Below the pieces are notes generated by a model, which saw nothing but the letters and a program-made list of their open reading frames with translations, was not told the origin of the DNA and did no database searches. Of a DNA stretch of 29,840 nucleotides, positions 16,553 through 29,840 are shown piece by piece; position 1 is the first letter of the stretch, and each line of letters begins with the position of its first letter. Source of the DNA: a virus. The translations under genes were made by a program, and so were the position numbers. The stretch is from positions 1-29,840 of IMG/VR virus record IMGVR_UViG_3300048919_000356. The stretch is one strand, 5' to 3'.

Positions 16553-16849
16553 TCAGTTGTGGTGGCAGCGGCTGTGATCATCCCCATCGTGGATGGGCTC
16601 GTTGCAGCACTGGCTGTAGCTCTGGTTGTACTCGTTGGGCGGCCCGGTGAGACCGCCGCACAGTTCGCAGTGGTAGGCGGCGTCACGGGCCGCGTTGCGT
16701 GCCTCGAGCTCGGCAGCCACCTTGTCCCATTCGCGGCGGGCCTTGAGCTCGGCAGTATCGGTGGCTGCAACAGCCTTCGCCTGCGCCCTACGGCACGCAG
16801 CACGCGCGGCCTTGGTGTTGTCGTGATCGCAGTTCGCGTGGTTTGTCAT
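16553..16849 (-). CDS. His-Cys module protein with additional zinc site, leaderless message
   Basis: 98 residues. The N-terminus MTNHANCDHDNTKAARAACRR is the shared H-x2-C-x-H-x9-C module found in five other proteins here. A charged helix follows, then a second Cys/His-rich part: YHCELCGGLTG, QCCNEP and HSRCHHN. Both parts probably bind zinc. The ATG is six bases after the -10 TATAAT, predicting leaderless translation. Function unknown; the Arg-rich helix next to the module would suit nucleic-acid binding. Confidence 0.75.
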   Translation of the reverse strand: MTNHANCDHDNTKAARAACRRAQAKAVAATDTAELKARREWDKVAAELEARNAARDAAYHCELCGGLTGPPNEYNQSYSQCCNEPIHDGDDHSRCHHN

Positions 16850-16855
16850 GCCTTA

Positions 16856-16903
16856 ATTATAGCCTACCCTGGGCGGCATGTCGAGGCTGGGCAGCAAGAT
16901 CTT
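16856..16903 (-). promoter_or_regulatory. Cassette promoter with AAGATCTT box (leaderless type)
   Basis: AAGATCTT (16903-16896), 11 bases, -35 TCGACA (16884-16879), 17-base spacer, -10 TATAAT (16861-16856), then six bases to the ATG at 16849. Confidence 0.8.
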
Positions 16904-16940
16904 TCCACACCAACGGGCGTGTGGGCGTCGTGGAGCGCCC

Positions 16941-16956
16941 CGTATGCCAGCATTCT
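16941..16956. promoter_or_regulatory. Operator-like palindrome copy (CGTATGCCAGCATTCT)
   Basis: Matches the consensus GGWATGC-(TG/CA)-GCATWCC at 14 of 16 positions. It lies 37 bases upstream of the AAGATCTT box of the 16.85 kb promoter, inside a larger imperfect inverted repeat (about 16911-16970). Confidence 0.5.
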
Positions 16957-17012
16957 GCCCACGCCCGTTACCCCGTCAGCGGGCCGTACAGGCTCATACC
17001 TCACCTGTCAGG

Positions 17013-17042
17013 GCCGTGCGCGCGGGGCAGGGCGCGCACGGC
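17013..17042 (-). terminator. Terminator hairpin after the 17.05 kb gene
   Basis: Perfect 11-bp inverted repeat GCCGTGCGCGC (17013-17023) with its complement (17032-17042) and an 8-base loop, directly after the minus-strand stop at 17051. Confidence 0.65.
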
Positions 17043-17050
17043 GGGCAAGG

Positions 17051-17353
17051 TCAGTTGTCGCGTGTCGGGTGGATCATGCGCACGGCACGGCATTCGTGAT
17101 CATCATCGTCGAAGCAGATCATGTAATCGACGAGGTGCACGGGGCACACGGACAGGTCGAGGCACGCGCGCGTGAGCAGTTCACGATCGGCGGCGTCGAG
17201 CGTGCGCGTCGATTCGATCGGCTGGTCGATGATCATCTCGCGGAGGTATTCGCGAAGATCGGTCATGTCGATCATCGGGTCAGTCGCGTCAGCGGCGTAG
17301 AAGGCGTCGATTTCGTCGATCAGTTCGGGCCTGTCGCGTTCGTTGTTCGTCAT
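17051..17353 (-). CDS. Acidic hypothetical protein, leaderless message
   Basis: 100 residues, strongly acidic: MTNNERDRPELIDEIDAFYA then MIDMTDLREYLREMIIDQP and VDYMICFDDDDHECRAVRM. No recognised family. The ATG directly follows GATATATT-TATCTC, which in other cassettes continues as CTCAACGAC before a leader; here the leader is absent and the ATG takes the position of the transcription start. It forms a single-gene unit with its own terminator. The strong acidity could fit a protein-interaction or DNA-mimic role, which is only speculation. Confidence 0.75.
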   Translation of the reverse strand: MTNNERDRPELIDEIDAFYAADATDPMIDMTDLREYLREMIIDQPIESTRTLDAADRELLTRACLDLSVCPVHLVDYMICFDDDDHECRAVRMIHPTRDN

Positions 17354-17359
17354 GAGATA

Positions 17360-17407
17360 AATATATCCCACGCGCGGCGATATGGCAAGGTGATCGAGCA
17401 AGATCTT
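17360..17407 (-). promoter_or_regulatory. Cassette promoter with AAGATCTT box (leaderless type)
   Basis: AAGATCTT (17407-17400), 11 bases, -35 TTGCCA (17388-17383), 17-base spacer, -10 TATATT (17365-17360), then TATCTC and the ATG. Bases from the box to CTCA match the leadered plus-strand copy at 17973-18020 closely. Confidence 0.85.
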
Positions 17408-17422
17408 TTCTCTCCGCCACAC

Positions 17423-17438
17423 CATATGCCAGCATTCC
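17423..17438. promoter_or_regulatory. Operator-like palindrome copy (CATATGCCAGCATTCC)
   Basis: Matches the palindrome consensus at most positions and lies 15 bases upstream of the AAGATCTT box of the 17.36 kb promoter. A partial box (GATCTTGC) follows further upstream at about 17450. Confidence 0.5.
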
Positions 17439-17532
17439 CGTCGGCAGCGATCTTGCTCCTACGCCCCGCTCAGGGCCGCCAGCCTCGTCCCTCGCCGGGG
17501 AGAGGGCGCCCCGTAGGACGCCCCCTCGGGAA

Positions 17533-17682
17533 TCAGCCGACGAGGATGATGATCCAGGCGGAGATGATCATGGTCAGGGCGACAATGAAGAACATGATCA
17601 CAGCCCCCATGCCCCCCTCGGCCTGGGCACGACGACGGGCAGCACGGCGGCTATGGCTGGCGGGCTTACGTGTTTTCGTCAT
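17533..17682 (-). CDS. Small single-pass membrane protein, leaderless message
   Basis: 49 residues: a very basic N-terminus (KTRKPASHSRRAARRRAQA) and one transmembrane helix (MGAVIMFFIVALTMIISAWIIILVG) reaching the C-terminus. The start is fixed by a promoter whose -10 ends six bases before the ATG. The basic head resembles the arginine-rich part of the His-Cys module but lacks the cysteines. An inner-membrane anchor with a nucleic-acid-facing head is possible; function unknown. Confidence 0.65.
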   Translation of the reverse strand: MTKTRKPASHSRRAARRRAQAEGGMGAVIMFFIVALTMIISAWIIILVG

Positions 17683-17688
17683 GCCCTT

Positions 17689-17718
17689 ACCTTATCCCGT
17701 CAGCCAGGCACATGGCAA
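17689..17718 (-). promoter_or_regulatory. Leaderless-type promoter without box (TTGCCA-18-TAAGGT)
   Basis: -35 TTGCCA (17718-17713), 18-base spacer, -10 TAAGGT (17694-17689), then AAGGGC and the ATG at 17682. Diverges from the promoter at 17758-17796. No AAGATCTT box is seen. Confidence 0.6.
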
Positions 17719-17757
17719 GGATAACTTTGGGCAAGGAGCCGTCACAGAAAATTACTG

Positions 17758-17796
17758 GGCAAGGGCCTTGCCACGTGCCGAGGCACGGGATATGAT
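17758..17796 (+). promoter_or_regulatory. Leaderless-type promoter with two palindromes (TTGCCA-17-TATGAT)
   Basis: -35 TTGCCA (17768-17773), 17-base spacer, -10 TATGAT (17791-17796), six bases to the ATG. GGCAAGG-G-CCTTGCC (17758-17772) overlaps the -35, and CGTGCC-GA-GGCACG (17774-17787) fills the spacer; both look like repressor sites. Confidence 0.6.
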
Positions 17797-17802
17797 GATG
17801 CC

Positions 17803-17952
17803 ATGAACAAAGCCCGCCGCCAGGCCATATCCGATGGATTTTGGCATCAGCCCACGACGATCTTCCTCTTCGCCATGTGGATCACCTTCTGCGTGCGCGT
17901 CGGGTCATGGCTCGGCTTCACCCTTGAGCTCTGGTTCCATCGCATGTTCTGA
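17803..17952 (+). CDS. Small membrane-associated protein, leaderless message
   Basis: 49 residues: basic start (MNKARRQAISDGFWHQP) then one hydrophobic, aromatic helix (TTIFLFAMWITFCVRVGSWLGFTLELWF). The start is set by a -10 box six bases upstream. A terminator hairpin follows within 12 bases of the stop. It lies back to back with another small membrane gene on the other strand. Function unknown. Confidence 0.65.
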   Translation: MNKARRQAISDGFWHQPTTIFLFAMWITFCVRVGSWLGFTLELWFHRMF

Positions 17953-17963
17953 TCTACATTGAA

Positions 17964-18001
17964 GCTGTGGCAAGGATCTTGCCCCGAATCCTTGCCACAG
18001 C
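17964..18001 (+). terminator. Terminator hairpin overlapping the next promoter
   Basis: Perfect 14-bp inverted repeat GCTGTGGCAAGGAT (17964-17977) and its complement (17988-18001), loop of ten. The right arm contains the -35 of the following cassette promoter and the left arm contains most of its box. Confidence 0.75.
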
Positions 18002-18020
18002 CTCGGGTATGGCGTATATT
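17973..18020 (+). promoter_or_regulatory. Cassette promoter with box (AGGATCTT; leadered type)
   Basis: AGGATCTT (17973-17980), 11 bases, -35 TTGCCA (17992-17997), 17-base spacer, -10 TATATT (18015-18020), then TATCTCAACGAC leader and AAGGAG. The box deviates by one base, where it is part of the overlapping terminator. Confidence 0.8.
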
Positions 18021-18048
18021 TATCTCAACGACAACGAAGGAGCCAAAA

Positions 18049-18321
18049 ATGACCGCCATCACCCTCCGCCTCTCGACCCCGATCACCGACACCCACCGTG
18101 ACCTCGACATCGACCTGGTGATCGGTGACGACACCAACCTCGACACCCTGCTGACCACCCGGGGCTTTATCCACCTGACCACCGAGGAGGGTGACGACGT
18201 CGACATGATCACCTACCGCCACCCCGTGCTCGGCGACGTCGACGTGATGGTGTGGCACGACACCCCCAAGGGCTTCATCCCCACCCTGACTGAGGGCCAG
18301 CTGATTGCCCTGCTCCCGTAG
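18049..18321 (+). CDS. Acidic protein, paralogue of the 27.55 kb gene
   Basis: 90 residues. It shares with the gene at 27550-27819 the order L-x-T-[RA]-[KR]-G-F, TEE-x-DD, Y, G-x-VD, VWH-x2-PKGF-x-P. The sequence has many Asp residues (VIGDDTNLDTLL, TTEEGDDVDMITY). No named family recognised. It is preceded by a typical leader (CAACGACAACGAAGGAG) and followed by a terminator shared with a convergent gene. The compact acidic alpha/beta sequence could bind a host protein; speculation. Confidence 0.8.
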   Translation: MTAITLRLSTPITDTHRDLDIDLVIGDDTNLDTLLTTRGFIHLTTEEGDDVDMITYRHPVLGDVDVMVWHDTPKGFIPTLTEGQLIALLP

Positions 18322-18330
18322 CCTCCGCCA

Positions 18331-18383
18331 GCCAGCCCCCGTCCACACCCTCATCTTTCGGGTGACATCGGGCGGGGGCTGGC
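18331..18383. terminator. Bidirectional terminator between convergent genes
   Basis: GCCAGCCCCCG (18331-18341) and its complement (18373-18383) form a perfect 11-bp stem; the 31-base loop holds a smaller CACCC/GGGTG pairing. It lies between a plus-strand gene ending at 18321 and a minus-strand gene ending at 18411. Confidence 0.7.
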
Positions 18384-18410
18384 GAGTGAGGTGGTAGCCT
18401 GCGGCGGGCC

Positions 18411-18728
18411 TCAGGCGGGCGTAGGCGTGTCGTCGCCCGGGCTCGGAATGCTGGCATTCCGGGCTTGCCCTACCCGCTCCTCGAGCAGCCTCGTGGCCTC
18501 GGTCAGCTTGTCCTGGGCGCTCCCGAATTCCTGGAAGCGTGAGGCCACCACCTGCGCGGCCCGCATGAGTGCCTCACCATCCGCCTGGTCGAGCAACAGC
18601 ACCAGCTGAGAGCCCTGTACGGCCTCCTGAAGAACCTCGGCAGTCTGGTAATCGGGGCAAACGACCCCGACCTTGCGGTTGCCCATGGTCCACACCACCA
18701 CGTGGGTGTAGGGCGTCACCGTGCCCAT
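18411..18728 (-). CDS. Hypothetical protein
   Basis: 105 residues. The first half is beta-type (THVVVWTMGNRKVGVVCPDYQTAEVLQEA, then LVLLLDQADG), the second half a long helix (AQVVASRFQEFGSAQDKLTEATRLLEERVGQ). No family recognised. ATG 18728 has AGGAGG eight bases upstream. It is the second gene of a two-gene unit from the promoter at 19.06 kb. An operator-like palindrome lies in its 3' end, encoding part of the tail. Confidence 0.7.
   Translation of the reverse strand: MGTVTPYTHVVVWTMGNRKVGVVCPDYQTAEVLQEAVQGSQLVLLLDQADGEALMRAAQVVASRFQEFGSAQDKLTEATRLLEERVGQARNASIPSPGDDTPTPA
18445..18460. promoter_or_regulatory. Operator-like palindrome GGAATGC-TG-GCATTCC
   Basis: Perfect 7-bp arms around TG; the best-formed copy of the dispersed palindrome together with that at 16000. 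It lies inside the 3' end of a gene, so it could act as a roadblock site rather than a promoter operator. Confidence 0.55.
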
Positions 18729-18731
18729 ACC

Positions 18732-19031
18732 CTAGCCCTCCTGCTTGGGCACGACGATGAACGTCTCCCCGGTCAGCTCGAGCTCTTCGTGATGGCTGCG
18801 AAACGTTGGTCGGCTGCGTCGCACCGCGGCCTGGAATTGGCGGCTCTTGACTTTCTCCGCGTGAGCCAGCTTCCGCCCGAGTCGCTGCACCTTCCTGCGG
18901 TTGGCCCTCGAGTCCGAGCCCCTCACCGGGGACTTGTCCGGCCCGGCCACAGGCTCCCACACCAGCCGATCCGCCTCGGGCCGAGCGCCCTTGGTGGATC
19001 CCTCCGACCGCATGAGCGCGCTGATCTTCAC
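18732..19031 (-). CDS. Basic hypothetical protein
   Basis: 99 residues starting VKISALMRSEGSTKGARP. The middle is rich in Arg and Lys (RANRRKVQRLGRKLAHAEKVKSRQFQAAVRRSRP), suggesting nucleic-acid binding, followed by a beta-type end (ELELTGETFIVVPKQEG). GTG 19031 with AGGGAG six bases upstream is preferred over ATG 19049, which has no ribosome-binding site. It ends three bases before the next gene. No named family. Confidence 0.6.
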   Translation of the reverse strand: MKISALMRSEGSTKGARPEADRLVWEPVAGPDKSPVRGSDSRANRRKVQRLGRKLAHAEKVKSRQFQAAVRRSRPTFRSHHEELELTGETFIVVPKQEG

Positions 19032-19062
19032 TCTTTGCTCCCTTCGCATCGTCCAACACTTC

Positions 19063-19092
19063 AGTATATCATCCCACCTCGGGGAAGAGCAA
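19063..19092 (-). promoter_or_regulatory. Putative promoter (TTGCTC-18-TATACT)
   Basis: -35 TTGCTC (19092-19087), 18-base spacer, -10 TATACT (19068-19063), upstream of the two-gene unit 18411-19031. GATCTTG precedes the -35 without the full AAGATCTT box. Confidence 0.5.
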
Positions 19093-19407
19093 GATCAAGT
19101 CATTTTCCGATCCCCCCGCACGAAAAGTGCGCCGCAGCTTTCACCAATCTGCCAGCTTCACCAATCTGCAAGACCCCATTCACTGTATACCTATTCACTC
19201 TACTGCATACCTAAGCCGGATTTCCGGGCTTGGCATATTTCCGATCATGCCCTGGCGCATTTCCTGTGATCTGTGATGATCAACATCCTCCCTGACGTGC
19301 AGTAACAAAATTTCTGATACGTCGGTATGAACCCCCCCATATAGACGCGCAACAAAAAAGAGTAATGCTACGTATCAGAAATTTCTGTGACAACCGATCA
19401 TGAATCC
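19093..19407. other. Non-coding, repeat-rich region, candidate replication origin
   Basis: About 315 bases without a convincing gene, next to the primase-helicase gene and more AT-rich than its surroundings. It holds tandem CACCAATCTGC repeats (about 19138-19172), an ATTCACT...TATACCT / ATTCACT...GCATACCT pair (about 19178-19211), CTGTGAT repeats, a C7 run, an A6 run and a 15-bp inverted repeat. These are the usual ingredients of phage origins. A regulatory or terminator role is also possible. Confidence 0.4.
19308..19384. repeat. 15-bp inverted repeat with 47-base spacer
   Basis: AAATTTCTGATACGT (19308-19322) and ACGTATCAGAAATTT (19370-19384) are perfect complements. The spacer includes CCCCCCC and AACAAAAAAG. 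It lies 23 bases past the stop of the primase-helicase gene. Confidence 0.85.
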
Positions 19408-21882
19408 CTACCCAGCCCGCCTTCCCGACCACCTAAACCCCGGAATCATCCTCTTCTTCCCCACCACACCCTGCAGGTTCACGGGCACCCAAGGGTCATC
19501 CTTCGCCAATCCTTGCACAATCCCCCTTTTGCCTAGCTCCCTATTGAATGCCTGCGGCGTCATTTTGCCCCCGACTTCCTCATTCCAGGCCCCCAACAAC
19601 TCCCCTCTCACTACGACCTCCTCACCCACGCGAGGGGGAAAGGGCTCGAGTACCTCCTCCAGCCATCGGCCCAGCTCATCCCGCTCGGAACGATATTCCT
19701 GGACCTGGTCATCGACTCCCTTGGGTATCTTAAGGGCTCCCTTGTCGCCTCCGTCGGCAAGCCACGCCTTGGCTCCCTCGGCTGCCCACCGCAGAATTGC
19801 CGGGCCTTCGGCCTCGAGAATGCGCTCGCCCAGTCGGGGGATCTGAGCATGCACTGGCACAACCCCGTTGGTGTGGAGGACGATCACGCGGTTCCATAGA
19901 GCATCGTCGCCGTGCCTAAGATTCGGCGCGTGGTTCGTATCCATCCACAGGGTCATTTGCGGGGTCATGTCATAGGCTTTTTCATACTTCCTCGAGACTT
20001 TCTTGGGCAGGCCTGTACCGTCAGTGAGGTCCTTCAGGAGTGCCTCGTCCACACGCAGACCGTCCTTCGTCTCCGACCACATGGCAAATCGGGCGCCGGT
20101 CAGAGCAGCCAGGCCGTCCTGGTTATTTCGCTCGAATTTCGTGTAAGCAAAGGTGTCCCGCTTGACTGTGCCAGAGTAATCACCCATGAGACCATGGAGG
20201 ACTCGTTGGAGCTGGCTCTTGCCCGAGTCGGTGGGCCCCTGGAGGGTGATGAACCACTTCTTCGCCACACCCACGAGAGTAGATCCTACGAGGCGTTGCA
20301 TGAGGTCTAGATTCTCTGCCCCGATGGTCTCAGTCAAGAATTTCAGCCACCATGATGGCTTAGCTCCCCCTTCTGACCACGGTATCGTGGTTCGCTTGGT
20401 AATGAGATCCTCTGGCTCGGCCTTTCGTGCCTCACCAGTGCGGAGGTCGAGCACCATTCCGCCGCCCACACCCAGCAGGTAGCCGTCGGCGTCGAGCTCT
20501 GGTGCGAGCACCACGACACCAGGGAGAGCTTTGGCTTGGGTGAGGCAGTTATTACCCGCACTGGCTGATAGGCTCGCAGAGGCCCATTTGAGCGTGGCCA
20601 GGCGGGAGCGACCATCGGTGATATCCACACCAGATCTCATGAGATCCTTGGCGAGTTCAATGGCTTTGCCGCGGACGGCGTTACGGTCATCGCGGACCCA
20701 CACCCCAGTATCTGGGTCCCAGACAATCCAGGTCATCCACTCCGCCACCCAGCGGATTTCGCGGCCCCATTTCTCCACTAGGCGTACGGCATTACCCGTG
20801 TCCGTGAGGCTGGCGAGTTCCTCGATATCCGCGGCGGGCTCTTGGAGGTTAACCTCACCAGTAGTCGTTTCGGTCCGACGCCAGCCCTCGCGGCTTAGGC
20901 TACGGAGAGCGGCTTCTATCTCCCTCCTCACCTGCCCGGCGATGTCCCTCCTTCCGCCGAATTTCTCGTGGAATGCGACGGAGTCGGCGACGAGCATGGC
21001 GGCAGCCTGGTCAGCGGAGAGTCCGGCTTTGAGCAATTCCTTCGCCGTCGCGTGGACATGCTCCGATCGATCACCCGTGCGGCCCTCATCATCGCGGAGC
21101 ATGGCACGAGCGGTAGCGGTGAGACGGCTCCTCGCGGCCTCCAGCATGTCCCTGGTGCTCTGCCCAGCCTCGCCTGAGGTAACGGGCAGTAGGACGGCTG
21201 GGTCGAACGCTTCGAGCTCCTCAGGCTCTGGGAGAGCTAGCCACTCAGAGCGTTCGGAGGGATCGACCGCCTCATCCCTCTTCCACCGGAGAAACCTCCC
21301 AGGAGCTCCCTGTGGTCCATACTTACGGACCCGAGTAGGCTTGTAGTTCCTGCGGCCCGGGACACGGATTGGATGGGGCATGTCCCAGCATCCTCGATCC
21401 GCTCCTAGTCCTCGAGTGAGACGGCGGCTCAGCCGCTCCCATTCCTCCAGAGCCAGCGGCTCCTGTAGGACATGGAGACCCTGCCAAGAGCCCGGGCTGG
21501 TTTCCCACACCAGCTGAGGGATCAGGGCGGGTGAGAATCCGCGGGGATCCACTGCGTCATAGTCCGCGTGGACGATCCGACTCGGGGTTGTGTTGGCTTT
21601 GGTGCGGTGCCCCCGTCGCGCGTAGATAACGGGGCTGAAGTAGATATCCTTGTCCCCTCGGGTGTGGAGGAAAGAGGAGATTTCGGCGATCGTATCCTCA
21701 GTGAGTTCCCGTCCTTGCCTGGCGAACCATCGGTCCCGCCAGGCTACCTTGGTGCCGTCGGTACCTCGATCCATCCATCCCATCCAGACCCATCCGTCGG
21801 AGGGCGGTTGCTGGCCCCACACCCACGTGATGACCCGGATTTGGAGCTCGACAGATAGCTCTTTCCCATCCACCTGGTTCAC
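19408..21882 (-). CDS. Primase-polymerase / SF3 helicase fusion (replication protein)
   Basis: 824 residues. The N-terminal part fits an archaeo-eukaryotic-type primase-polymerase: VHADYDA (D107, D109) metal motif, SPGSWQGLHVL (S129, H137) and RVPGRRNYK near 173. The middle (about 360-500) resembles a D5-type linker region. The C-terminal helicase has Walker A GPTDSGKS (549-556), Walker B FAMWSETKDG and motif C LWMDTNHAPN, as in superfamily 3 helicases. Such fusions open the origin and prime replication. GTG 21882 overlaps the upstream stop as GTGA; a longer frame from 21999 would overlap that gene fully and is rejected. Confidence 0.9.
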   Translation of the reverse strand: MNQVDGKELSVELQIRVITWVWGQQPPSDGWVWMGWMDRGTDGTKVAWRDRWFARQGRELTEDTIAEISSFLHTRGDKDIYFSPVIYARRGHRTKANTTPSRIVHADYDAVDPRGFSPALIPQLVWETSPGSWQGLHVLQEPLALEEWERLSRRLTRGLGADRGCWDMPHPIRVPGRRNYKPTRVRKYGPQGAPGRFLRWKRDEAVDPSERSEWLALPEPEELEAFDPAVLLPVTSGEAGQSTRDMLEAARSRLTATARAMLRDDEGRTGDRSEHVHATAKELLKAGLSADQAAAMLVADSVAFHEKFGGRRDIAGQVRREIEAALRSLSREGWRRTETTTGEVNLQEPAADIEELASLTDTGNAVRLVEKWGREIRWVAEWMTWIVWDPDTGVWVRDDRNAVRGKAIELAKDLMRSGVDITDGRSRLATLKWASASLSASAGNNCLTQAKALPGVVVLAPELDADGYLLGVGGGMVLDLRTGEARKAEPEDLITKRTTIPWSEGGAKPSWWLKFLTETIGAENLDLMQRLVGSTLVGVAKKWFITLQGPTDSGKSQLQRVLHGLMGDYSGTVKRDTFAYTKFERNNQDGLAALTGARFAMWSETKDGLRVDEALLKDLTDGTGLPKKVSRKYEKAYDMTPQMTLWMDTNHAPNLRHGDDALWNRVIVLHTNGVVPVHAQIPRLGERILEAEGPAILRWAAEGAKAWLADGGDKGALKIPKGVDDQVQEYRSERDELGRWLEEVLEPFPPRVGEEVVVRGELLGAWNEEVGGKMTPQAFNRELGKRGIVQGLAKDDPWVPVNLQGVVGKKRMIPGFRWSGRRAG

Positions 21883-22727: not shown

Positions 22728-22906
22728 GCCACACCATAAGGCTGACTGACGAGGAAGCCGACGCTCTCGCCGTATCGATTGCCGCCCGTGTAGCCACCTC
22801 TCCTCGCCGTCTGATCGACCCCACTGGCTACGAGGAGCGCACTCGGCTTCTCGAGGGTGTGGTGAAGAAAATTAGCGAATCCGAATGGAGCCCCGATGAC
22901 CTTTGA
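22724..22906 (+). CDS. Small helical protein
   Basis: 60 residues from a GTG overlapping the preceding stop (GTGTGA). The sequence HTIRLTDEEADALAVSIAARV followed by ERTRLLEGVVKKISESEW is helical and charged. 'IRLTDEEADALA' resembles a ribbon-helix-helix or similar small phage protein, but this is not certain. Its end overlaps the next gene by 11 bases. Confidence 0.65.
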   Translation: MSHTIRLTDEEADALAVSIAARVATSPRRLIDPTGYEERTRLLEGVVKKISESEWSPDDL

Positions 22907-23462
22907 GATTCCTCGGCCGCCGATCCTGGCCGGGATTCCTACCCTCGAGAACCTGGTGTCCGAGCAGGGCTGGCTCTCGATGATGAAGCAGGCACCGAGG
23001 CTACCGAAGAATCTCCGACATGAGGGTCAGACACCGTGGACGTTGTGGGCGTGTGTCGCCCGCCGTACCCCCACACCGCCTCAGAAGGTGATGTGGACAT
23101 GGGCGAAGTCAGCTCATCCCACATACGCCCAGGCGTTCAATGCGTGGGTGGCCTCGCGGAAGGCGAACCAGGTCAGAATTGACGCCGGGGCGGTTGGCCC
23201 CATCATCGTGGATTGGTCGATCGTGTGCGGTCCCCGACTCTGGGACCAGCCCATTGACCGGACTTTGCCCGTCGGCACCTCGTGGTGCCCGCGATGCCGT
23301 CGCCCAGTGGTGTGGCGATTCATTGGTCGGCATCACGCCATCCAAGGCCTGTCTGAGTTGTCGCCCCTGCACCGCTGCCCATGGTGCGGTATCCGCGAGG
23401 ACTCGGCATGGCCACACCAAGCCAGTCAGGTCCGGGCTCGAGTGGAGAAGAAAGCCGCATGA
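22896..23462 (+). CDS. Hypothetical protein with a two-CxxC zinc site
   Basis: 188 residues. The N-terminal half is Trp-rich and helical (TPWTLWACVARRTPTPPQKVMWTWAKSAHPTYAQAFNAW). The C-terminal half has SWCPRCRRPVVW (about 128-131) and RCPWCGIRED (about 163-166), two CxxC pairs about 30 residues apart, which would bind one zinc. No family recognised. Third gene of the overlapping operon; its stop overlaps the next start as ATGA. Confidence 0.7.
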   Translation: MTFEIPRPPILAGIPTLENLVSEQGWLSMMKQAPRLPKNLRHEGQTPWTLWACVARRTPTPPQKVMWTWAKSAHPTYAQAFNAWVASRKANQVRIDAGAVGPIIVDWSIVCGPRLWDQPIDRTLPVGTSWCPRCRRPVVWRFIGRHHAIQGLSELSPLHRCPWCGIREDSAWPHQASQVRARVEKKAA

Positions 23463-23959: not shown

Positions 23960-24004
23960 CTTCACGACGCACCACCCACTGACCCCCACGAAAGGGAGCC
24001 CGAC

Positions 24005-24451
24005 ATGACCGAGCCCACCGACGCGCTGCTCGACGAGGTCGAGGAGATCGCCGTCGACGAGTCCGCCGAGACCGAGGCGGCTCCGAAGGCGAAGAAGGAG
24101 AAGGCGCCGGCCAAGCCGAAGATCGAGTTCGGTGCGCCGTGGCTCGCCGAGCACGTCAAGGAGGTCACCAGCCAGGAGCTCGACGCCAAGGGTGTGCGGA
24201 TGCTGCTGCGCAAGCTGAACTCCGAGGGCAAGCTCGGCGACCGTGAGCACGGCGCGCGGTATGACTTCACCGGCCCCGAGGACCCGCGTGTGATCGCCGT
24301 GGTCGACTCGGTCAAGGAGAAGGCCGCGAAGGCGTCCGAGCCGAAGGCACCTCGGGCGAAGAAGGCCCAGGGTGCGACGGCGTCTGCTGATGAGCCTGTG
24401 GTCGAGGACGAGGACGCCGTGGTCGAGGATCTCGACGATCTCGACGCCTGA
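24005..24451 (+). CDS. Putative DNA-binding protein with disordered acidic and basic tails
   Basis: 148 residues in three parts: an acidic, Lys/Ala/Pro-rich N-terminus (about 1-40), a folded core (EFGAPWLAEHVKEVTSQELDAKGVRMLLRKL, then ARYDFTGPEDPRVIAVVD, about 41-100) and a disordered tail ending in an acidic stretch EDLDDLDA. The core pattern 'L...VR.LLRKL.....RYDF....' is like small winged-helix proteins of actinophages and of the protein at 25509. High Lys/Ala/Pro content is histone-like. The strong promoter and terminator suggest high expression. Function inferred. Confidence 0.7.
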   Translation: MTEPTDALLDEVEEIAVDESAETEAAPKAKKEKAPAKPKIEFGAPWLAEHVKEVTSQELDAKGVRMLLRKLNSEGKLGDREHGARYDFTGPEDPRVIAVVDSVKEKAAKASEPKAPRAKKAQGATASADEPVVEDEDAVVEDLDDLDA

Positions 24452-24473
24452 TCGCGTTTCGCTCCGCCCGGCC

Positions 24474-24505: not shown

Positions 24506-24520
24506 CCATGGATAGGCTCC

Positions 24521-24549: not shown

Positions 24550-24587
24550 GGGGGTGATGGACAACCGAGTTTACTCTAGAGATCACC

Positions 24588-24616: not shown

Positions 24617-24650
24617 TGCCTTAACACTGCATCACACCTAGGGACTCGAA

Positions 24651-24851: not shown

Positions 24852-25132
24852 TCGCTATCGGTGCCACCTTTGATCAAGTTTACTGGGCAGCCGTGGCAGT
24901 CGTTGCCATCTGTAAGACACAAGGGGTCGACCCGATCGAGCTGGCCCAGGCTCCCCTGGACGACGGCTACACCACCAACGAGATCAAGGTGTGGACTGGT
25001 GAGGCCCGGGACAACATGCTGGCCTGCCAGGCTACCACACCACGCGCGCTCGAGCAGATCGATTACACCCTAACCCTTGCCGATGCCGAGACCGTGCTGT
25101 GCTTCGTGACCTTGGTCGCCTCGGGTCGATAA
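24848..25132 (+). CDS. Small hypothetical protein
   Basis: 94 residues with a hydrophobic start (MIAIGATFDQVYWAAVAVVAICKTQGVDP) that is more likely a buried helix than a signal, then a polar helical part and a hydrophobic end (TVLCFVTLVASGR). No recognised family. Its stop TAA is the first part of the TAAAAGATCTT sequence of the next cassette promoter, so no terminator separates them. Confidence 0.65.
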   Translation: MIAIGATFDQVYWAAVAVVAICKTQGVDPIELAQAPLDDGYTTNEIKVWTGEARDNMLACQATTPRALEQIDYTLTLADAETVLCFVTLVASGR

Positions 25133-25180
25133 AAGATCTTGGCACTACGCCTTGACGACGCCTCGGGCATGGGATAGGTT
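25133..25180 (+). promoter_or_regulatory. Cassette promoter with AAGATCTT box (TTGACG-17-TAGGTT)
   Basis: AAGATCTT (25133-25140), 11 bases, -35 TTGACG (25152-25157), 17-base spacer, -10 TAGGTT (25175-25180), leader TATCTCAACGAC and GAGGAG before the ATG. Confidence 0.85.
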
Positions 25181-25207
25181 TATCTCAACGACACTGAGGA
25201 GCTCGAA

Positions 25208-25426
25208 ATGGCTAGCAAACTGGTTGCCCGCATGAAGATCCGCCAGCAGGCTCAGCCTTACATTAACGAGATCAACAACTCCCAGATTAACATCGCCAGC
25301 TGGCAGACATTGCCTCTGCCCGACGATGTTCGGGAGCCGATCGTCCGCGCCGTCGCGGAGCTCGAGGCTGCCAAAGCTTCGCTTGCTGAGGCGCTCGAGG
25401 CGGCGAATCGTTGGGAGATCGGCTGA
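25208..25426 (+). CDS. Small helical protein
   Basis: 72 residues: MASKLVARMKIRQQAQPYINEINNSQINIASWQTLPLPDDV, then a coiled-coil-like helix (AVAELEAAKASLAEALEAANRW). No recognised family. GAGGAG seven bases upstream. The C-terminal helix could serve for dimerisation. Its stop is followed directly by the next AAGATCTT box. Confidence 0.7.
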   Translation: MASKLVARMKIRQQAQPYINEINNSQINIASWQTLPLPDDVREPIVRAVAELEAAKASLAEALEAANRWEIG

Positions 25427-25427
25427 A

Positions 25428-25475
25428 AAGATCTTGAGGTCCTTCCTTGACCGACGCCGACACATGAGATAGGTT
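25428..25475 (+). promoter_or_regulatory. Cassette promoter with AAGATCTT box (TTGACC-17-TAGGTT)
   Basis: AAGATCTT (25428-25435), 11 bases, -35 TTGACC (25447-25452), 17-base spacer, -10 TAGGTT (25470-25475), followed by CATCTCAACG. Confidence 0.85.
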
Positions 25476-25508
25476 CATCTCAACGCACCAACGACCAGGG
25501 AGCCGAAA

Positions 25509-25817
25509 ATGACCACCGACGCCAAGGCCACCGCAAGCGAAGTCGCCGCGATGTTGGGCACGACCCCGAAGATCTTCCGTCGTTTCCTCCGCGACGAGAC
25601 CTCAACCTTCCGCCCAGTTGGCCAGGGTAAGCGGTACGAATTCGGCCCGCGTGACATCGCCGCGGCGAAGCGCCTGTTCCCGATCTGGCAGGCCGCCCAC
25701 ACCCGCAAGCCGAAGGGCGAGGCCGCAGTGCCCGCGCAGGACGGCCAGGCCCGCGCCGAGGCGCTCGACACCGCACTCAAGGCCGCTGGGCTTCACGTGA
25801 GCCAGCACGCCGCCTGA
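25509..25817 (+). CDS. Putative helix-turn-helix DNA-binding protein
   Basis: 102 residues. Residues 7-32 (ATASEVAAMLGTTPKIFRRFLRD) make a helix-turn-helix of the type used by excisionases and Lsr2-like C-terminal domains, followed by a small wing with GKRYEFGPRDIAAAKRLFP. The rest is a polar helix. Many actinophages carry several such small proteins; a histone-like or regulatory role is inferred. Followed by a strong terminator, so it is a complete one-gene cassette. Confidence 0.75.
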   Translation: MTTDAKATASEVAAMLGTTPKIFRRFLRDETSTFRPVGQGKRYEFGPRDIAAAKRLFPIWQAAHTRKPKGEAAVPAQDGQARAEALDTALKAAGLHVSQHAA

Positions 25818-25828
25818 CGATCGACCGC

Positions 25829-25855
25829 CGCCCCGGGCTCATCCCCCGGGGCGGT
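25829..25855 (+). terminator. Terminator hairpin after the 25.5 kb gene
   Basis: CCGCCCCGGG (25829-25838) and complement CCCGGGGCGG (25846-25855) with a 7-base loop; the next cassette box begins ten bases later. Confidence 0.75.
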
Positions 25856-25864
25856 TCGGCGGAA

Positions 25865-25912
25865 AAAATCTTGGCGACGTGCCTTGCCATCATCTCGGTA
25901 AAGGGATAGTGT
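25865..25912 (+). promoter_or_regulatory. Cassette promoter with variant box (AAAATCTT; TTGCCA-17-TAGTGT)
   Basis: AAAATCTT (25865-25872), 11 bases, -35 TTGCCA (25884-25889), 17-base spacer, -10 TAGTGT (25907-25912). One-base box variant that breaks the AAGATCTT palindrome; a weaker member of the family. Confidence 0.75.
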
Positions 25913-25957
25913 TACTTCAACGCCACCAACCAGGGGGCTGAGCCCGAGGAGGGCCAC

Positions 25958-26182: not shown

Positions 26183-26190
26183 TCTTCACT

Positions 26191-26227
26191 CACCAGGCCC
26201 CAGCCCTCGGGCTGGGGTCGGCTGGTG
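26191..26227 (+). terminator. Terminator hairpin after the 25.96 kb gene
   Basis: Two nested stems: CCCCAGCCC-tc-GGGCTGGGG (26198-26217) inside CACCAG (26191-26196) / CTGGTG (26222-26227). Confidence 0.7.
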
Positions 26228-26239
26228 GAGGGGAGGCTC

Positions 26240-26299
26240 ATGCACGACGCGCGCACGTACGCGAGACAGCGTCGTAAGGGCCTCCAGAATCGACGCTGA
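26240..26299 (+). CDS. Possible 19-residue basic peptide
   Basis: MHDARTYARQRRKGLQNRR, preceded by GGGGAGG five bases upstream of the ATG. Very basic, with no promoter of its own visible other than read-through past the terminator. It may be a real micro-gene or a remnant of an arginine-rich tail. Low certainty. Confidence 0.3.
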   Translation: MHDARTYARQRRKGLQNRR

Positions 26300-26384
26300 C
26301 GATCCGACATACGTCTTGAGGGTCATCTATCGAACGAGCGATACGGGCTCGTTAGCGTCTCGCTGGGACGCTCGAAATTCGTCC

Positions 26385-26413
26385 TTGACACCCTCATGGC
26401 GCCCAGATACAGT
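26385..26413 (+). promoter_or_regulatory. Leaderless-type promoter without box (TTGACA-17-TACAGT)
   Basis: -35 TTGACA (26385-26390), 17-base spacer, -10 TACAGT (26408-26413), then CATCCC and the ATG at 26420. The same CAGATACAGT -10 context recurs at 29256. Confidence 0.7.
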
Positions 26414-26419
26414 CATCCC

Positions 26420-26899
26420 ATGACAACGACAACCGATCCCTGGGAGCCCCTGATGACCGAATATGGCTTTACCCCCGAGGAGCTTCGGGATGATCATTCG
26501 GCTCCCTTCCGTCACGACTGTGGTCACATGGTCGTTACGTGGCCCGAGACTGGGGTGCTCGAAGACGCCAACGATGATGGCCCGATGGGCACCGAGCACG
26601 AGTGCAGCCGCACTGACGACATCCCGGACTCTGTGGCTCCAACCCTCGCCGAGCTGCTCGCCAAGGTCAACGCTCTGATCCCGACCGAGCCTGACCACAC
26701 CTCCGAGCCCGGCGAGGCCCCTGGCTGGCCCAGCCCGGCCCGTGACCGCGTTCGGCAGCTCGAGCAGGACGTCGACCGCGAGATCGTCGAGCGAGGCACG
26801 ATCGCCGCTCCGCGCCGAGCGAACTCAAGCCACGCCAACTGCTCTCACCCTGCGACCAAGGCCGCGCGAGCCAAGTGCCGTCGCGATCGTAGCCGCTGA
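26420..26899 (+). CDS. His-Cys module protein (C-terminal copy), leaderless message
   Basis: 159 residues. The N-terminal half includes a Cys/His segment (FRHDCGHMVVTWPETGVLEDAN and GTEHECSRTDD) that may bind metal. The middle is helical and polar. The last 23 residues are the shared module SHANCSHPATKAARAKCRR. The ATG is six bases after the -10, predicting a leaderless message; an in-frame ATG at 26396 lies upstream of the predicted transcription start. A terminator follows. Function unknown. Confidence 0.75.
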   Translation: MTTTTDPWEPLMTEYGFTPEELRDDHSAPFRHDCGHMVVTWPETGVLEDANDDGPMGTEHECSRTDDIPDSVAPTLAELLAKVNALIPTEPDHTSEPGEAPGWPSPARDRVRQLEQDVDREIVERGTIAAPRRANSSHANCSHPATKAARAKCRRDRSR

Positions 26900-26910
26900 T
26901 CTTCACCAGG

Positions 26911-26930
26911 CCCTGCCCTTCGGGGCAGGG
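26911..26930 (+). terminator. Terminator hairpin with UUCG loop
   Basis: CCCTGCCC-TTCG-GGGCAGGG: an 8-bp stem closed by the very stable C(UUCG)G tetraloop, 12 bases after the stop. Confidence 0.75.
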
Positions 26931-26945
26931 TCGAGGAGTGGCTAA

Positions 26946-26993
26946 AAGATCTTGACCTCGATCCTTGAGATCACCTGAGGTGTGGGATATCGT
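26946..26993 (+). promoter_or_regulatory. Cassette promoter with AAGATCTT box (TTGAGA-17-TATCGT)
   Basis: AAGATCTT (26946-26953), 11 bases, -35 TTGAGA (26965-26970), 17-base spacer, -10 TATCGT (26988-26993), leader TGTCTCAACGACGAACACAA and GAAGGAG. Confidence 0.85.
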
Positions 26994-27027
26994 TGTCTCA
27001 ACGACGAACACAACGAAGGAGCTCAAA

Positions 27028-27417
27028 ATGACCACCACCGCCCCCAGCCACCGCATCTGCCTTGACTGCGACGCCAGGCTCACCCGAAAGAACCACCACG
27101 CGGTGGGCCTGTCCCTCTGCGATTCCTGCGCCGAGCGGGCGGGCCACGAGAACGCCCACGAAGATGGTCACCACGCCGGGACCTTTGTTGAGGGCTGCCC
27201 GATGTGCGACGATGCCGAGGCCCCGGTCGAGATCATCCTGCCCTCCACCGATGGCAGCCGTGACCACATCGTGTCCGAGCCGACCGGGCGTAAGAACATC
27301 GACCACTCCGCGTGCCCGCACCCCGCGACCAAGGCGGCCAGGGCAAAGTGCCGCAAGGCTATCGCTCAGACCATGGCTGAGATCAAGGGCCTGAGCAACA
27401 TTCACGACCACGAGTGA
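27028..27417 (+). CDS. Double zinc-ribbon protein with C-terminal His-Cys module
   Basis: 129 residues. An N-terminal ribbon has ICLDCDARL (CxxC near 11-14) and LCDSCAERAG (CxxC near 31-34), followed by GHENAHEDGHHAG and a third CxxC, GCPMCDD. This 'CDsCae.AG.ENaH.DG.H....CP.C' pattern recurs in actinophage early proteins. Near the C-terminus stands the shared module DHSACPHPATKAARAKCRK, then a short helix. Probably several zinc ions bound. Complete cassette with promoter, leader and terminator. Function unknown. Confidence 0.8.
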   Translation: MTTTAPSHRICLDCDARLTRKNHHAVGLSLCDSCAERAGHENAHEDGHHAGTFVEGCPMCDDAEAPVEIILPSTDGSRDHIVSEPTGRKNIDHSACPHPATKAARAKCRKAIAQTMAEIKGLSNIHDHE

Positions 27418-27427
27418 TCGACTCCCG

Positions 27428-27458
27428 CCACGTGCCCGGCTTCGGCCGGGCTTCGTGG
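27428..27458 (+). terminator. Terminator hairpin with UUCG loop
   Basis: CCACG-t-GCCCGGC-TTCG-GCCGGGC-tt-CGTGG: two stacked stems with a UUCG tetraloop, ending eight bases before the next AAGATCTT box. Confidence 0.8.
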
Positions 27459-27465
27459 TGGATAA

Positions 27466-27513
27466 AAGATCTTGGCCGAATGCCTTGAGACGAGGTGTGG
27501 CATGGGGTATATT
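27466..27513 (+). promoter_or_regulatory. Cassette promoter with AAGATCTT box (TTGAGA-17-TATATT)
   Basis: AAGATCTT (27466-27473), 11 bases, -35 TTGAGA (27485-27490), 17-base spacer, -10 TATATT (27508-27513), then TATCTCAC and a leader with AAGGAG. Confidence 0.85.
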
Positions 27514-27549
27514 TATCTCACACCACAACGACAAGCCAAGGAGCCCGAA

Positions 27550-27819
27550 ATGACCACCACCACAAAGGCCGTGACCATCCTCCTCTTCGGCCTCAACTTC
27601 CAGGGCAGCCAGGAGCTCGAGATCATCGTCGACCTTGACGACCTGCATGACGTGCTCACCGCGAAGGGCTTCGGCTACAGCTCGACCGAGGAGGACGACC
27701 ACTGCGACATCGAGTCGTACTACGCGGCGAACGGCCAGAACGTCGATCTGTACGTGTGGCACATCGTGCCCAAGGGCTTCTCGCCAATCAATGCGCAGCC
27801 CCTCGAGATCCTCGCGTAA
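27550..27819 (+). CDS. Acidic protein, paralogue of the 18.05 kb gene
   Basis: 89 residues. Shares with the 18049 gene the motifs LTAKGFGYSSTEEDDHCDIESYY, NVDLYVWH and PKGFSPI in the same order and spacing. Starts MTTTTKAVTILLFGLNFQG. The acid-rich middle (DLDDLHDV, EEDDHCDIES) is stronger than in the paralogue. Both sit in leadered cassettes with TATATT -10 boxes, so gene and cassette may have been copied together. No named family. Confidence 0.8.
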   Translation: MTTTTKAVTILLFGLNFQGSQELEIIVDLDDLHDVLTAKGFGYSSTEEDDHCDIESYYAANGQNVDLYVWHIVPKGFSPINAQPLEILA

Positions 27820-27834
27820 CCTCCCTACTCTCCC

Positions 27835-27857
27835 GCCCCGGCCACACCGGCCGGGGC
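27835..27857 (+). terminator. Terminator hairpin after the 27.55 kb gene
   Basis: GCCCCGGCC (27835-27843) and GGCCGGGGC (27849-27857), 9-bp stem, 5-base loop. Confidence 0.75.
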
Positions 27858-27909
27858 TGCTTGGTGGTGTGAGGCGCTCAGCGCGAGCGTGCGCGACGTT
27901 CCCGGCCCA

Positions 27910-27925
27910 GGATAGCCAGCATACC
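27910..27925. promoter_or_regulatory. Operator-like palindrome copy (GGATAGCCAGCATACC)
   Basis: Fifth copy of the dispersed palindrome, with the left arm imperfect. It lies in a gene-free stretch (27858-27981) upstream of the 27.98 kb cassette promoter, near a small GACGCC/GGCGTC hairpin (27939-27956). Confidence 0.4.
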
Positions 27926-27981
27926 TACCCCGCAGCGCGACGCCACACAGGGCGTCTCCGGCTGTCAGGCAATTCGGCTAA

Positions 27982-28028
27982 AAGATCTTGCCATAACCCT
28001 TGAGACACCCTCAGGCGTGAGATACGAT
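27982..28028 (+). promoter_or_regulatory. Cassette promoter with AAGATCTT box (TTGAGA-17-TACGAT)
   Basis: AAGATCTT (27982-27989), 10 bases, -35 TTGAGA (28000-28005), 17-base spacer, -10 TACGAT (28023-28028). The leader deviates from the others (AAACAACAACAACC) but is still CAAC-rich, and ends with GAGGAG. Confidence 0.8.
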
Positions 28029-28064
28029 GGTACCATCGAAACAACAACAACCGAGGAGCCCACC

Positions 28065-28550
28065 ATGACCACCGCCACGATCGCCGCCCACGACATGTCC
28101 GACGAGGCGCTGACCCTCGCCCTCCACACCGCCGAGGAGATCGTCGCAGGCCGCATGCCCGCTGGTTCGTTCGACGTCAGCGACGTCATCACCAGCCACC
28201 GCGCCCTTGCCGCCGAGGCCGCCCGTCGTCGTCGCCAGCCGATCGTGAAGGAGATCACCGTGACCGAGCCCCAGGACCGCGCCACCAGCCACATCACCTG
28301 CACCCACCCTCGCACCAAGGTCGCGCGTGCCGCCTGCCGTCGGGCTCGTGCCCGTGCCGCGGAGCCCCAGGCGCCCGCGTACTCGCTGATCAAGACCGAG
28401 GCGCAGCTCGCCGAGGCCCGCTCGAAGATCGCCGCGAAGGGCTGCCAGGGCGAGGTCAAGTCGGGGGCTCGTAAGGGTCAGCGTTGCGGGCGTCCAACCG
28501 CCCAGGGCCAGATCGTTTGCTCCGGCCACGCCCGAAGCTTCAAGATCTAA
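28065..28550 (+). CDS. His-Cys module protein with a second C-terminal Cys/His domain
   Basis: 161 residues. Residues 1-60 form a helical domain (MSDEALTLALHTAEEIVAGRMP, VITSHRALAAEAARRRRQP). The shared module TSHITCTHPRTKVARAACRRARARA follows in the middle (about 75-100). The C-terminal 35 residues read GCQGEVKSGARKGQRCGRPTA and IVCSGHARSF, the 'C....k.G.rkGqrCgrp....G..vC..H' pattern of a small zinc domain (DUF5763-like). Highly basic overall, so RNA or DNA binding is likely. Flanked by its own promoter and terminator. Confidence 0.75.
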   Translation: MTTATIAAHDMSDEALTLALHTAEEIVAGRMPAGSFDVSDVITSHRALAAEAARRRRQPIVKEITVTEPQDRATSHITCTHPRTKVARAACRRARARAAEPQAPAYSLIKTEAQLAEARSKIAAKGCQGEVKSGARKGQRCGRPTAQGQIVCSGHARSFKI

Positions 28551-28563
28551 CCACCTCACCGCG

Positions 28564-28590
28564 ACGGCCCGGCCACACCAGCCGGGCCGT
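28564..28590 (+). terminator. Terminator hairpin after the 28.07 kb gene
   Basis: ACGGCCCGGC (28564-28573) and GCCGGGCCGT (28581-28590), 10-bp perfect stem, loop CACACCA. No promoter is seen between it and the next gene, so read-through must supply that gene. Confidence 0.75.
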
Positions 28591-28612
28591 TGCCATCCCT
28601 AGGGAGCCTGAC

Positions 28613-29230
28613 ATGAAAGCCGTACCGACCGAGCTGGAAAGCCTCGAGTCGAGCCGCCAGCTCGTCCGATTCGCCCTCGCGCTGGGTGTGGCCGCGTCGT
28701 TGGCGGCGAACGTGCTCCATGCCGACACCAACGTGATCTCTCGCATCATCGCCGCGTGGCCGCCTACCGCACTGATCGTCACGGTTGAGATCATCACGCG
28801 CATTCCCGGGCGAAGCGGGGTGATGAGCGGAATCCGCATCGCCGCAACGTCGATCGTAGCAGCCATCGCCGCCTGGGTGTCATACTGGCACATGGCTGGT
28901 GTGGCTCGTCGGTACGGCGAGACCTACATCAGCGCGCACATGATCCCGTTCTCGGTCGATGGGTTGATCGTCGTGGCGTCGATCTCTTTGGTCGAGGTGA
29001 ACCGACGACTCGCTGTGTTGCTCACGGCTGAGAGCGTCGTAGAGGCGCCTCAGATTGACACTGACGCACCGAATAACGTCCCGCAGATGATTGCTCAGGT
29101 GACGCCTCGAGAGCCCTCACAGCGCGTCTCACACCGTGTGGGCAACCACCAGCACTGCGATCATGACAACACCCGTGCAGCTCGGGCTGCGTGCCGTCGC
29201 ACTCGGGCCGAGGCACTTACGCCCGCCTGA
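28613..29230 (+). CDS. DUF2637 membrane protein with C-terminal His-Cys module
   Basis: 205 residues with four membrane helices: LVRFALALGVAASLAANVL, PPTALIVTVEIITRI, AATSIVAAIAAWVSYWHMAGV and IPFSVDGLIVVASISLVEVNRRLAVLL. The layout and the motif YISAHMIPFSVDGLIV match DUF2637, a family common on actinobacterial plasmids and phages, related to plasmid-spread proteins. The function is unknown. Unlike usual members, the cytoplasmic tail ends with the shared module NHQHCDHDNTRAARAACRR. GGGAG lies seven bases before the ATG. It has no promoter of its own. Confidence 0.85.
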   Translation: MKAVPTELESLESSRQLVRFALALGVAASLAANVLHADTNVISRIIAAWPPTALIVTVEIITRIPGRSGVMSGIRIAATSIVAAIAAWVSYWHMAGVARRYGETYISAHMIPFSVDGLIVVASISLVEVNRRLAVLLTAESVVEAPQIDTDAPNNVPQMIAQVTPREPSQRVSHRVGNHQHCDHDNTRAARAACRRTRAEALTPA

Positions 29231-29232
29231 CC

Positions 29233-29261
29233 TTGACCCTCTTGCCCGACCCAGATACAGT
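29233..29261 (+). promoter_or_regulatory. Putative promoter without box (TTGACC-17-TACAGT)
   Basis: -35 TTGACC (29233-29238), 17-base spacer, -10 TACAGT (29256-29261) in the context CCAGATACAGTC, which matches the promoter at 26385-26413. Here a leader with AAAGGAG follows. Confidence 0.65.
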
Positions 29262-29293
29262 CGAACTACGACACCGAGCCAAAGGAGCAAATC

Positions 29294-29467
29294 ATGAACG
29301 CCAGGGCTGGGCACTACGGAGGCGAACGCGACAACCGCGGGGGCTACCGCGACCGCTGGGAGCGTGACAGCAGCCGCCGCCACGGGCGGCAGGTCGTGCG
29401 TCGCGAGCTTCGCGACATCCACCGCCGGGTTCGCCTGCAAGGCATCCAAGCCGCTGGAGATCGATGA
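29294..29467 (+). CDS. Small Arg/Gly-rich protein
   Basis: 57 residues with 16 Arg: GHYGGERDNRGGYRDRWERD, then RRHGRQVVRRELRDIHRRVRLQGIQAAG. The RGG- and RD-like composition suggests RNA or DNA binding and little fixed structure. AAAGGAG six bases upstream of the ATG. Its stop overlaps the next start as ATGA. Confidence 0.65.
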   Translation: MNARAGHYGGERDNRGGYRDRWERDSSRRHGRQVVRRELRDIHRRVRLQGIQAAGDR

Positions 29468-29610
29468 TGTACTCGTTCGAGTACCGCGACCGATGGGTCC
29501 GATCCTGCTGTCGGGAGAGATGCAACTGGACGAGTGATTACGTTCGGCTCCAGATGGTGGCCAGGTGGCGTTGGCGGAAACATTTCAAGATCGTTCACAA
29601 AACTCCTTGA
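29464..29610 (+). CDS. Small Cys/Trp/Arg-rich protein
   Basis: 48 residues starting MMYSFEYRDRWVRSCCRERCNWTSDYV and ending RWRKHFKIVHKTP. Starts inside the stop of the preceding gene (ATGA), indicating coupled translation. Three cysteines (CC and C) could bind metal. Its 3' end covers the box and -35 of the next cassette promoter. Short length keeps certainty moderate. Confidence 0.5.
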   Translation: MMYSFEYRDRWVRSCCRERCNWTSDYVRLQMVARWRWRKHFKIVHKTP

Positions 29611-29635
29611 GATGACCTCGGGCTCGAGATAGGTT
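29587..29635 (+). promoter_or_regulatory. Cassette promoter with degenerate box (AAGATCGT; TTGAGA-17-TAGGTT)
   Basis: AAGATCGT (29587-29594), 12 bases, -35 TTGAGA (29607-29612), 17-base spacer, -10 TAGGTT (29630-29635), leader TATCTCAACACCTCAACGAC. The box lies inside coding sequence (Lys-Ile-Val codons), which may explain its change. Confidence 0.8.
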
Positions 29636-29667
29636 TATCTCAACACCTCAACGACAGGGAGCCCGAA

Positions 29668-29840
29668 ATGACCACTCACGCGAACTGCACCCACCCGGCC
29701 ACCAAGGCCGCTCGCGCCACCTGCCGCAGGATCAACGCCGACCACGCCGCTGCCAAGGCCGCTCTCGAGGCCCTCCCCTACCGCCTCGAATCGATCAACG
29801 CCCGGGACGTCACCGAAGGCATGGAGCTCGTCGTCCCCAC
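29668..29840 (+). CDS. His-Cys module protein, N-terminal part (runs off right edge)
   Basis: 57 residues visible. It starts directly with the module, MTTHANCTHPATKAARATCRR, followed by a helix (INADHAAAKAALEALPYRLESI) and the start of a new segment (NARDVTEGMELVVP). The N-terminal position of the module matches that of the 16.85 kb protein. Preceded by a full leadered cassette (GGGAG seven bases upstream). The stop lies outside the window. Confidence 0.75.
   Translation, partial: MTTHANCTHPATKAARATCRRINADHAAAKAALEALPYRLESINARDVTEGMELVVP

Follow-up and report, generated by a model that had tools for sequence, protein, structure and literature searches.

The CCHC zinc knuckle of the retroviral nucleocapsid type is a very short element that presents four Cys/His ligands between basic flanks and is functional alone. 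The module described here is likewise very short, with four Cys/His ligand positions and basic residues, but zf-CCHC is spaced CX2CX4HX4C whereas the module is spaced H-x2-[CH]-x-H-x9-C, with its final ligand within a predicted helix. Given this different spacing and the lack of any Pfam zf-CCHC match among 106 carriers, the module could not be placed in that family. A second relevant background is phage protein domain mosaicism, in which fragments are shuffled between unrelated proteins (PMC10684548). Our starting material, referred to as the window, is the whole 29,840-nucleotide stretch of virus record IMGVR_UViG_3300048919_000356. A sequence-only reading of this DNA had proposed that a small His-Cys module is attached to six otherwise unrelated proteins.

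The module and its carriers in the window

All six proposed H-x2-C-x-H-x9-C-R motifs were found in the right frames and positions. Dinucleotide-preserving shuffles of the window gave 0.067 expected occurrences of this loose motif against the six observed, and a stricter pattern (H..[CH].H..[TS]...R..CR) gave 0 expected against six observed. The module measures approximately 17-20 residues. Copy A (HANCDHDNTKAARAACR; 16790..16840, minus strand) is N-terminal, 3 residues past the start methionine of carrier A (16553..16849, minus strand), which also has a C-terminal CxxCG...CCNE...HH zinc-ribbon-like domain; the same type of protein with an N-terminal tag occurs in G030 and G456. The remaining five copies are on the plus strand. 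Copy B (HANCSHPATKAARAKCR; 26831..26881) lies 5-6 residues from the C-terminal end of carrier B (26420..26899), a protein without assigned function. Copy C (HSACPHPATKAARAKCR; 27304..27354) lies about 20 residues from the C-terminus of the zinc-ribbon-like carrier C (27028..27417), and similar proteins are C-terminally tagged in Zuko, KimJongPhill, G460, G032, G468 and others. Copy D (HITCTHPRTKVARAACR; 28290..28340) is internal to carrier D (28065..28550), a protein without assigned function whose C-terminal segment contains Cys. Copy E (HQHCDHDNTRAARAACR; 29147..29197), 5-6 residues from the end, closes the C-terminal tail of the membrane protein carrier E (28613..29215), and copy F (HANCTHPATKAARATCR; 29677..29727) is N-terminal, 3 residues past the start methionine of carrier F (29668..29838), which runs past the window end and is full-length in L007.

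These positions agree with the earlier assignment of N-terminal (16849 and 29668), C-terminal (26420 and 28613), near-C-terminal (27028) and internal (28065) copies. When the module was masked, blastp separated the six carriers into six different families, so the proposal that they are otherwise unrelated holds. The DUF2637 assignment of the 28613 protein was likewise borne out by Pfam (score 47 bits, cut-off 22.8). The claim that the carriers include zinc-ribbon proteins stood only in part, as CxxC pairs are present in two of them and Pfam returned no match. The window is nearly identical, in sampled 40-mers, to IMGVR_UViG_3300026078_000032 and spans the ends of that record, which is 59.8 kb long, some 650 bp of it being terminal redundancy, and contains ten module copies. 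Since the window encodes a major head protein, portal and terminase (in addition to an endolysin and a primase), this phage has a portal-terminase head.

Distribution of the module

Profile and pattern searches gathered 108 distinct module copies from actinobacteriophages, IMG/VR contigs and a few actinobacterial genomes. Similar strings thus occur in actinophage proteins, as the sequence-only reading had noted. The largest number in one phage is 11, in Streptomyces phage Zuko, followed by KimJongPhill with 10, and other tagged phages infect Gordonia, Tsukamurella, Mycobacterium and Nocardia. A genome scan of about 85,000 species returned only 8 module loci, some of which adjoin tyrosine-integrase-like genes as judged by eye, and the module was present in 4 of 395 sampled genomes of the class, three of these being seeds already known. 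On the basis of these low counts the module looks to be carried by viruses or mobile elements. Plasmid searches found no module; the search with 26-aa queries is insensitive and is discounted because it also missed known copies in the phage collection, leaving the other plasmid search as the one that counts. Across the 108 copies, identity at codon positions 1, 2 and 3 was 0.68, 0.70 and 0.48, respectively, and the invariant module arginine is encoded by all six of its codons. With third codon positions the most variable, a DNA-level repeat is ruled out and the module is repeated at the protein level.

Residue conservation and predicted structure

Module residues are numbered from the first histidine (H1, [C/H]4, H6, [T/S]9, R13, C16 and R17). 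The key positions were freed one at a time in searches of the open reading frames of 18 tagged phage genomes. The freed positions admitted only H1 (82 of 82), C4 (61) or H4 (21), H6 (82), R13 (82), C16 (82) and R17 (82), and four additional phages contributed 17 copies, every one of which matches this rule. The exchange at position 4 is a change of TGC to CAC. The four ligand positions thus tolerate Cys-His exchange only, as in zinc fingers and knuckles, and position 4 reads as a metal ligand because such an exchange is what metal binding predicts. AlphaFold2 modeling of the module alone, from an alignment of 67 copies, gave a pLDDT of 92.6; in the model a loop is ordered and residues 13-35 form a helix. 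The predicted helix has a basic face formed by module residues 10, 13, 17 and 20, adjoining the last ligand. Mean net charge of the module is +4.3, with almost no acidic residues at positions 8-18. From the ligand pattern and the ordered loop of the model we infer that the module coordinates Zn2+. The earlier interpretation is retained to the extent of a very small tag with a basic helix that probably binds metal, its ligand positions being only His or Cys.

The module was also compared with described domains of which it might be a piece. None was found: models in Pfam (scan of 106 carriers), NCBIfam and PADLOC do not extend over the module, and no PDB entry matches it in sequence. Foldseek returned only SpoVG at an insignificant E value of 9.3, the 36-residue query being too short, and an alignment to the c-Fos basic region was not significant (E 0.37) and was rejected. 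Neither the motif strings nor a description of the module was found in the literature searched, most subscription journals lying outside the reach of that search. Two PHROG HMMs, 18656 and 1342, do match over the module (82 and 48 of the 106 carriers, respectively). These contain it, but they are whole-protein clusters without function in which the module is not set out as a domain.

A terminal tag on unrelated proteins

Once the module was masked, blastp resolved 107 carriers into 51 unrelated families. In 85 of 106 carriers (65 N-terminal and 20 C-terminal copies) at most 15 residues separate the module from a terminus, compared to an expectation of 33.5 and a maximum of 51 in 20,000 simulations. 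Two copies never occur in one protein. Most carrier start codons were chosen by script; when the starts deposited with the Zuko and KimJongPhill genomes were used instead, no more than 9 residues separated 19 of 21 copies from a terminus, and the remaining two started 23 residues into the protein. Several Gordonia phage SprT-like proteins (PF10263) are N-terminally tagged, while their orthologues in mycobacteriophages (ZoeJ, Medusa and Apocalypse) and in Muntaha, Zuko and KimJongPhill have no tag. The tag is therefore an addition to SprT and not a part of it. Zuko gp84 (L012:24497-25864), a 455 aa protein of phrog_2319 without assigned function, whose family also occurs in large Vibrio and Aeromonas phages, has the tag added as well, with untagged relatives in Stormageddon, E3 and Aeh1. 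The module is accordingly a terminal, single-copy tag that is absent from the orthologues of two carriers.

Pfam recognized SprT-like, HNH_3 and DUF2637 domains in a scan of 106 carriers. Among the carriers that could be recognized, proteins of nucleic-acid metabolism or genome access predominate; many others have no recognizable nucleic-acid function, and membrane proteins are among the carriers. In the Zuko gp95 family a five-stranded C-terminal barrel was modeled for which almost all matches listed were Hfq (Z 9.3, rmsd 1.2 over 55 residues). As this is a small barrel modeled from six sequences only, the likeness is a strong hint, rather than proof, that the relatives of Zuko gp95 end in an Hfq/Sm-like barrel. 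Predicted Hfq/Sm-like tagged proteins include KimJongPhill gp98 (L011:31562-31933) and Zuko gp95 (L012:31446-31814), with more than one paralogue per phage genome. Lys/Ala/Pro-rich, histone-H1-like tails were seen in tagged proteins of three Streptomycetaceae loci (L060, L061 and L065; Actinacidiphila and Streptomyces). In two proteins (G435, L338; G437, L329) a MuF-type head-morphogenesis domain is followed by the tag and then by a C-terminal domain that, by eye only, may be papain-like. In two more (G027, L113; G456, L313) an N-terminal tag is followed by a long linker and a HExxH metallopeptidase-like region.

Promoters and repeated upstream units

In the window and in Zuko, most small genes, tagged or not, are preceded by their own promoter (TTGACN-N17-TANNNT), with 5 such patterns found in the window region against 0.6 expected. 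The carrier B promoter (TTGACA-N17-TACAGT; 26385..26413, plus strand) ends 6 nt ahead of the ATG, so carrier B is probably leaderless, and on such promoter positions some of the small genes probably are too. Many small genes are also preceded by a repeated unit of approximately 60 nt, AAAGATCTTG-N6-CCTTGA-N17-GGGATAGGTTTATCTC...GGAGCCCGAAATGACC. It holds the -35/-10 pair, and the -10 is overlain by an operator-like inverted repeat (GGGATA-N4-TATCTC). On the plus strand, this unit provides the upstream region and promoter of carrier C (TTGAGA-N17-TATCGT; 26945..27006), carrier D (27995..28037) and carrier F (29602..29644), and other copies in the window lie at 17972-18033, 25132-25193, 25426-25484, 25864-25925 and 27465-27526.

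Association with a replication cassette

Comparison of the tagged phages identified approximately 15 replication genes common to 12 of the 13 examined, including those for a helicase, PolI, a Cas4-type exonuclease, a Sak4-like protein and an SSB-like protein; most were unmatched in three control phages. Phage GTE7 has one tag, yet only the helicase of this cassette. On the plus strand of the window the cassette includes a phrog_13148 protein without assigned function (22896..23462), an acidic phrog_16498 protein (23998..24451) and a phrog_15118 HTH protein (25509..25817). To evaluate the association, 70 IMG/VR contigs carrying the Sak4-like gene were compared with 44 control actinophages selected by a mycobacteriophage Medusa-type terminase. 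The tag was present in 37 of 70 cassette contigs, a count inflated by contigs first found via the module (about 17 are new), versus 0 of 44 controls; helix-only matches in 2 of the 44, with the ligand half absent, were left out of the count. Roughly half of the phages with this cassette lack the tag. Between 18 tagged and 12 untagged cassette phages, no gene family was in all of the tagged and absent from the untagged, the best tracking family being present in 11 of 18 and 0 of 12, respectively. With no phage gene tracking the tag, a dedicated phage-encoded receptor is unlikely and an ever-present target is favored, the candidates being nucleic acid, a protein of the host or a cassette protein common to these phages. 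The phrog_16498 protein, which is very acidic yet has Lys-rich stretches, occurs in every cassette phage examined, whether tagged or not. Although appealing as partners of a basic tag, this protein and other cassette genes were rejected as the tag receptor, being equally present in the 12 untagged phages.

Function of the module

The module exists, it is strictly conserved, it is placed terminally and once per protein, it is absent from orthologues of two of its carriers and it is associated with one replicon type. Its sequence suggests a tag that parks its carriers on DNA, RNA or one common partner. The reading that we prefer, and to which we give an even chance, is a basic helix, stabilized by zinc, that would hold early-acting phage proteins on nucleic acid; here zinc, binding, co-localization and early action are all inferred. 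The module would be an autonomous mini-domain of about 20 residues, attached terminally to phage proteins of unrelated families, which would all use it for docking. One zinc ion would be held by His1, Cys/His4, His6 and Cys16 and would pin a short loop onto a helix beginning at Thr9. The basic stripe of this helix (Lys10, the invariant Arg13 and Arg17, and often Arg20) would most likely contact the DNA or RNA phosphate backbone in the fashion of a zinc knuckle. Docking could then gather early proteins (protease, nuclease, Hfq-like, zinc-ribbon and membrane-protein tails) on nucleic acid during infection. This reading is favored by the recognizable carriers, namely SprT, HNH_3, the Hfq/Sm-like barrel, zinc ribbons and Lys/Ala/Pro-rich tails, and also by the strict residue conservation, the ordered model, the basic helix face, the link to the cassette and the lack of a phage gene that tracks the tag. 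Against it count the membrane carriers, the many carriers without a recognizable nucleic-acid role and the roughly one half of cassette phages that are untagged. It is also weakened because tandem or internal copies might be expected of a nucleic-acid binder, whereas the module is strictly single and mostly terminal.

That placement also fits a protein docking peptide, in which the zinc-stabilized helix would bind one conserved host or core phage replication protein and bring its carriers to it, as a dockerin or an encapsulation peptide does. Docking on a host protein is the main rival. Unrelated carriers, one copy at either end, untagged orthologues and enrichment of the tag in phages with one replication cassette all agree with such docking. 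We nevertheless regard it as the less probable explanation: no gene is specific to tagged phages, the cassette genes are equally present in untagged ones, GTE7 is tagged with the cassette missing save for its helicase, and the basic, Arg-rich surface is typical of nucleic-acid contact.

The tag inside MuF-type head proteins, and on proteins with a HExxH metallopeptidase-like region, could instead indicate co-packaging, in which the tag would bind phage DNA or a capsid part and load its carriers into the virion, from which they would reach the next host together with the genome. The capsid-targeting sequence of the T4 internal proteins is the analogue invoked for this scheme. For domains fused to MuF, delivery into the host is presumed (PMC5512222). 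This explanation is improbable, however, as most carriers are small, self-promoted genes located by replication genes and away from virion genes, membrane proteins are tagged, and a MuF protein would need no extra packaging signal. It is similarly doubtful that the module merely fills a structural role, such as capping a protein to aid its folding or stability, and that it has no common target and was spread through recombination between repeated upstream regions, since the promoter-leader repeats before many small genes could promote N-terminal shuffling but cannot account for C-terminal copies, and the ligands and both arginines are invariant across divergent phages while synonymous sites vary.

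Nucleic-acid docking is therefore kept as the preferred reading. More generally, and tentatively, at somewhat short of an even chance, we propose that the module is a phage address tag, a zinc-stabilized mini-domain that sends many unrelated proteins (up to 11 per genome, Hfq-like, SprT, nuclease, membrane and MuF-linked proteins among them) to one site in actinobacterial infection. If true, this would be a protein-sorting scheme not described for such phages. The module marks out a set of small genes, each with its own promoter, as functionally related, and a function for it would annotate dozens of unreadable actinophage gene families together. Transferred to GFP or any bait, the tag would provide a handle for identifying what its carriers assemble on.

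Comparison with described systems

The spread of the module resembles the mosaicism described in PMC10684548, a paper in which a term search found neither zinc nor words beginning with 'actino-'. The module is added by phages of soil actinobacteria to otherwise unrelated proteins, with carriers in 51 families, far beyond the six proteins first noted, and no described function was found for it. Unlike in encapsulation peptide and dockerin systems, no shell or receptor was found for it. Encapsulation peptides, the T4 capsid-targeting sequence and dockerins are not known to be metal-ligand modules of this spacing. They likewise consist of one short segment at either end of unrelated proteins, and if the module does sort proteins, it would be a rare instance of a common address label used by a phage.
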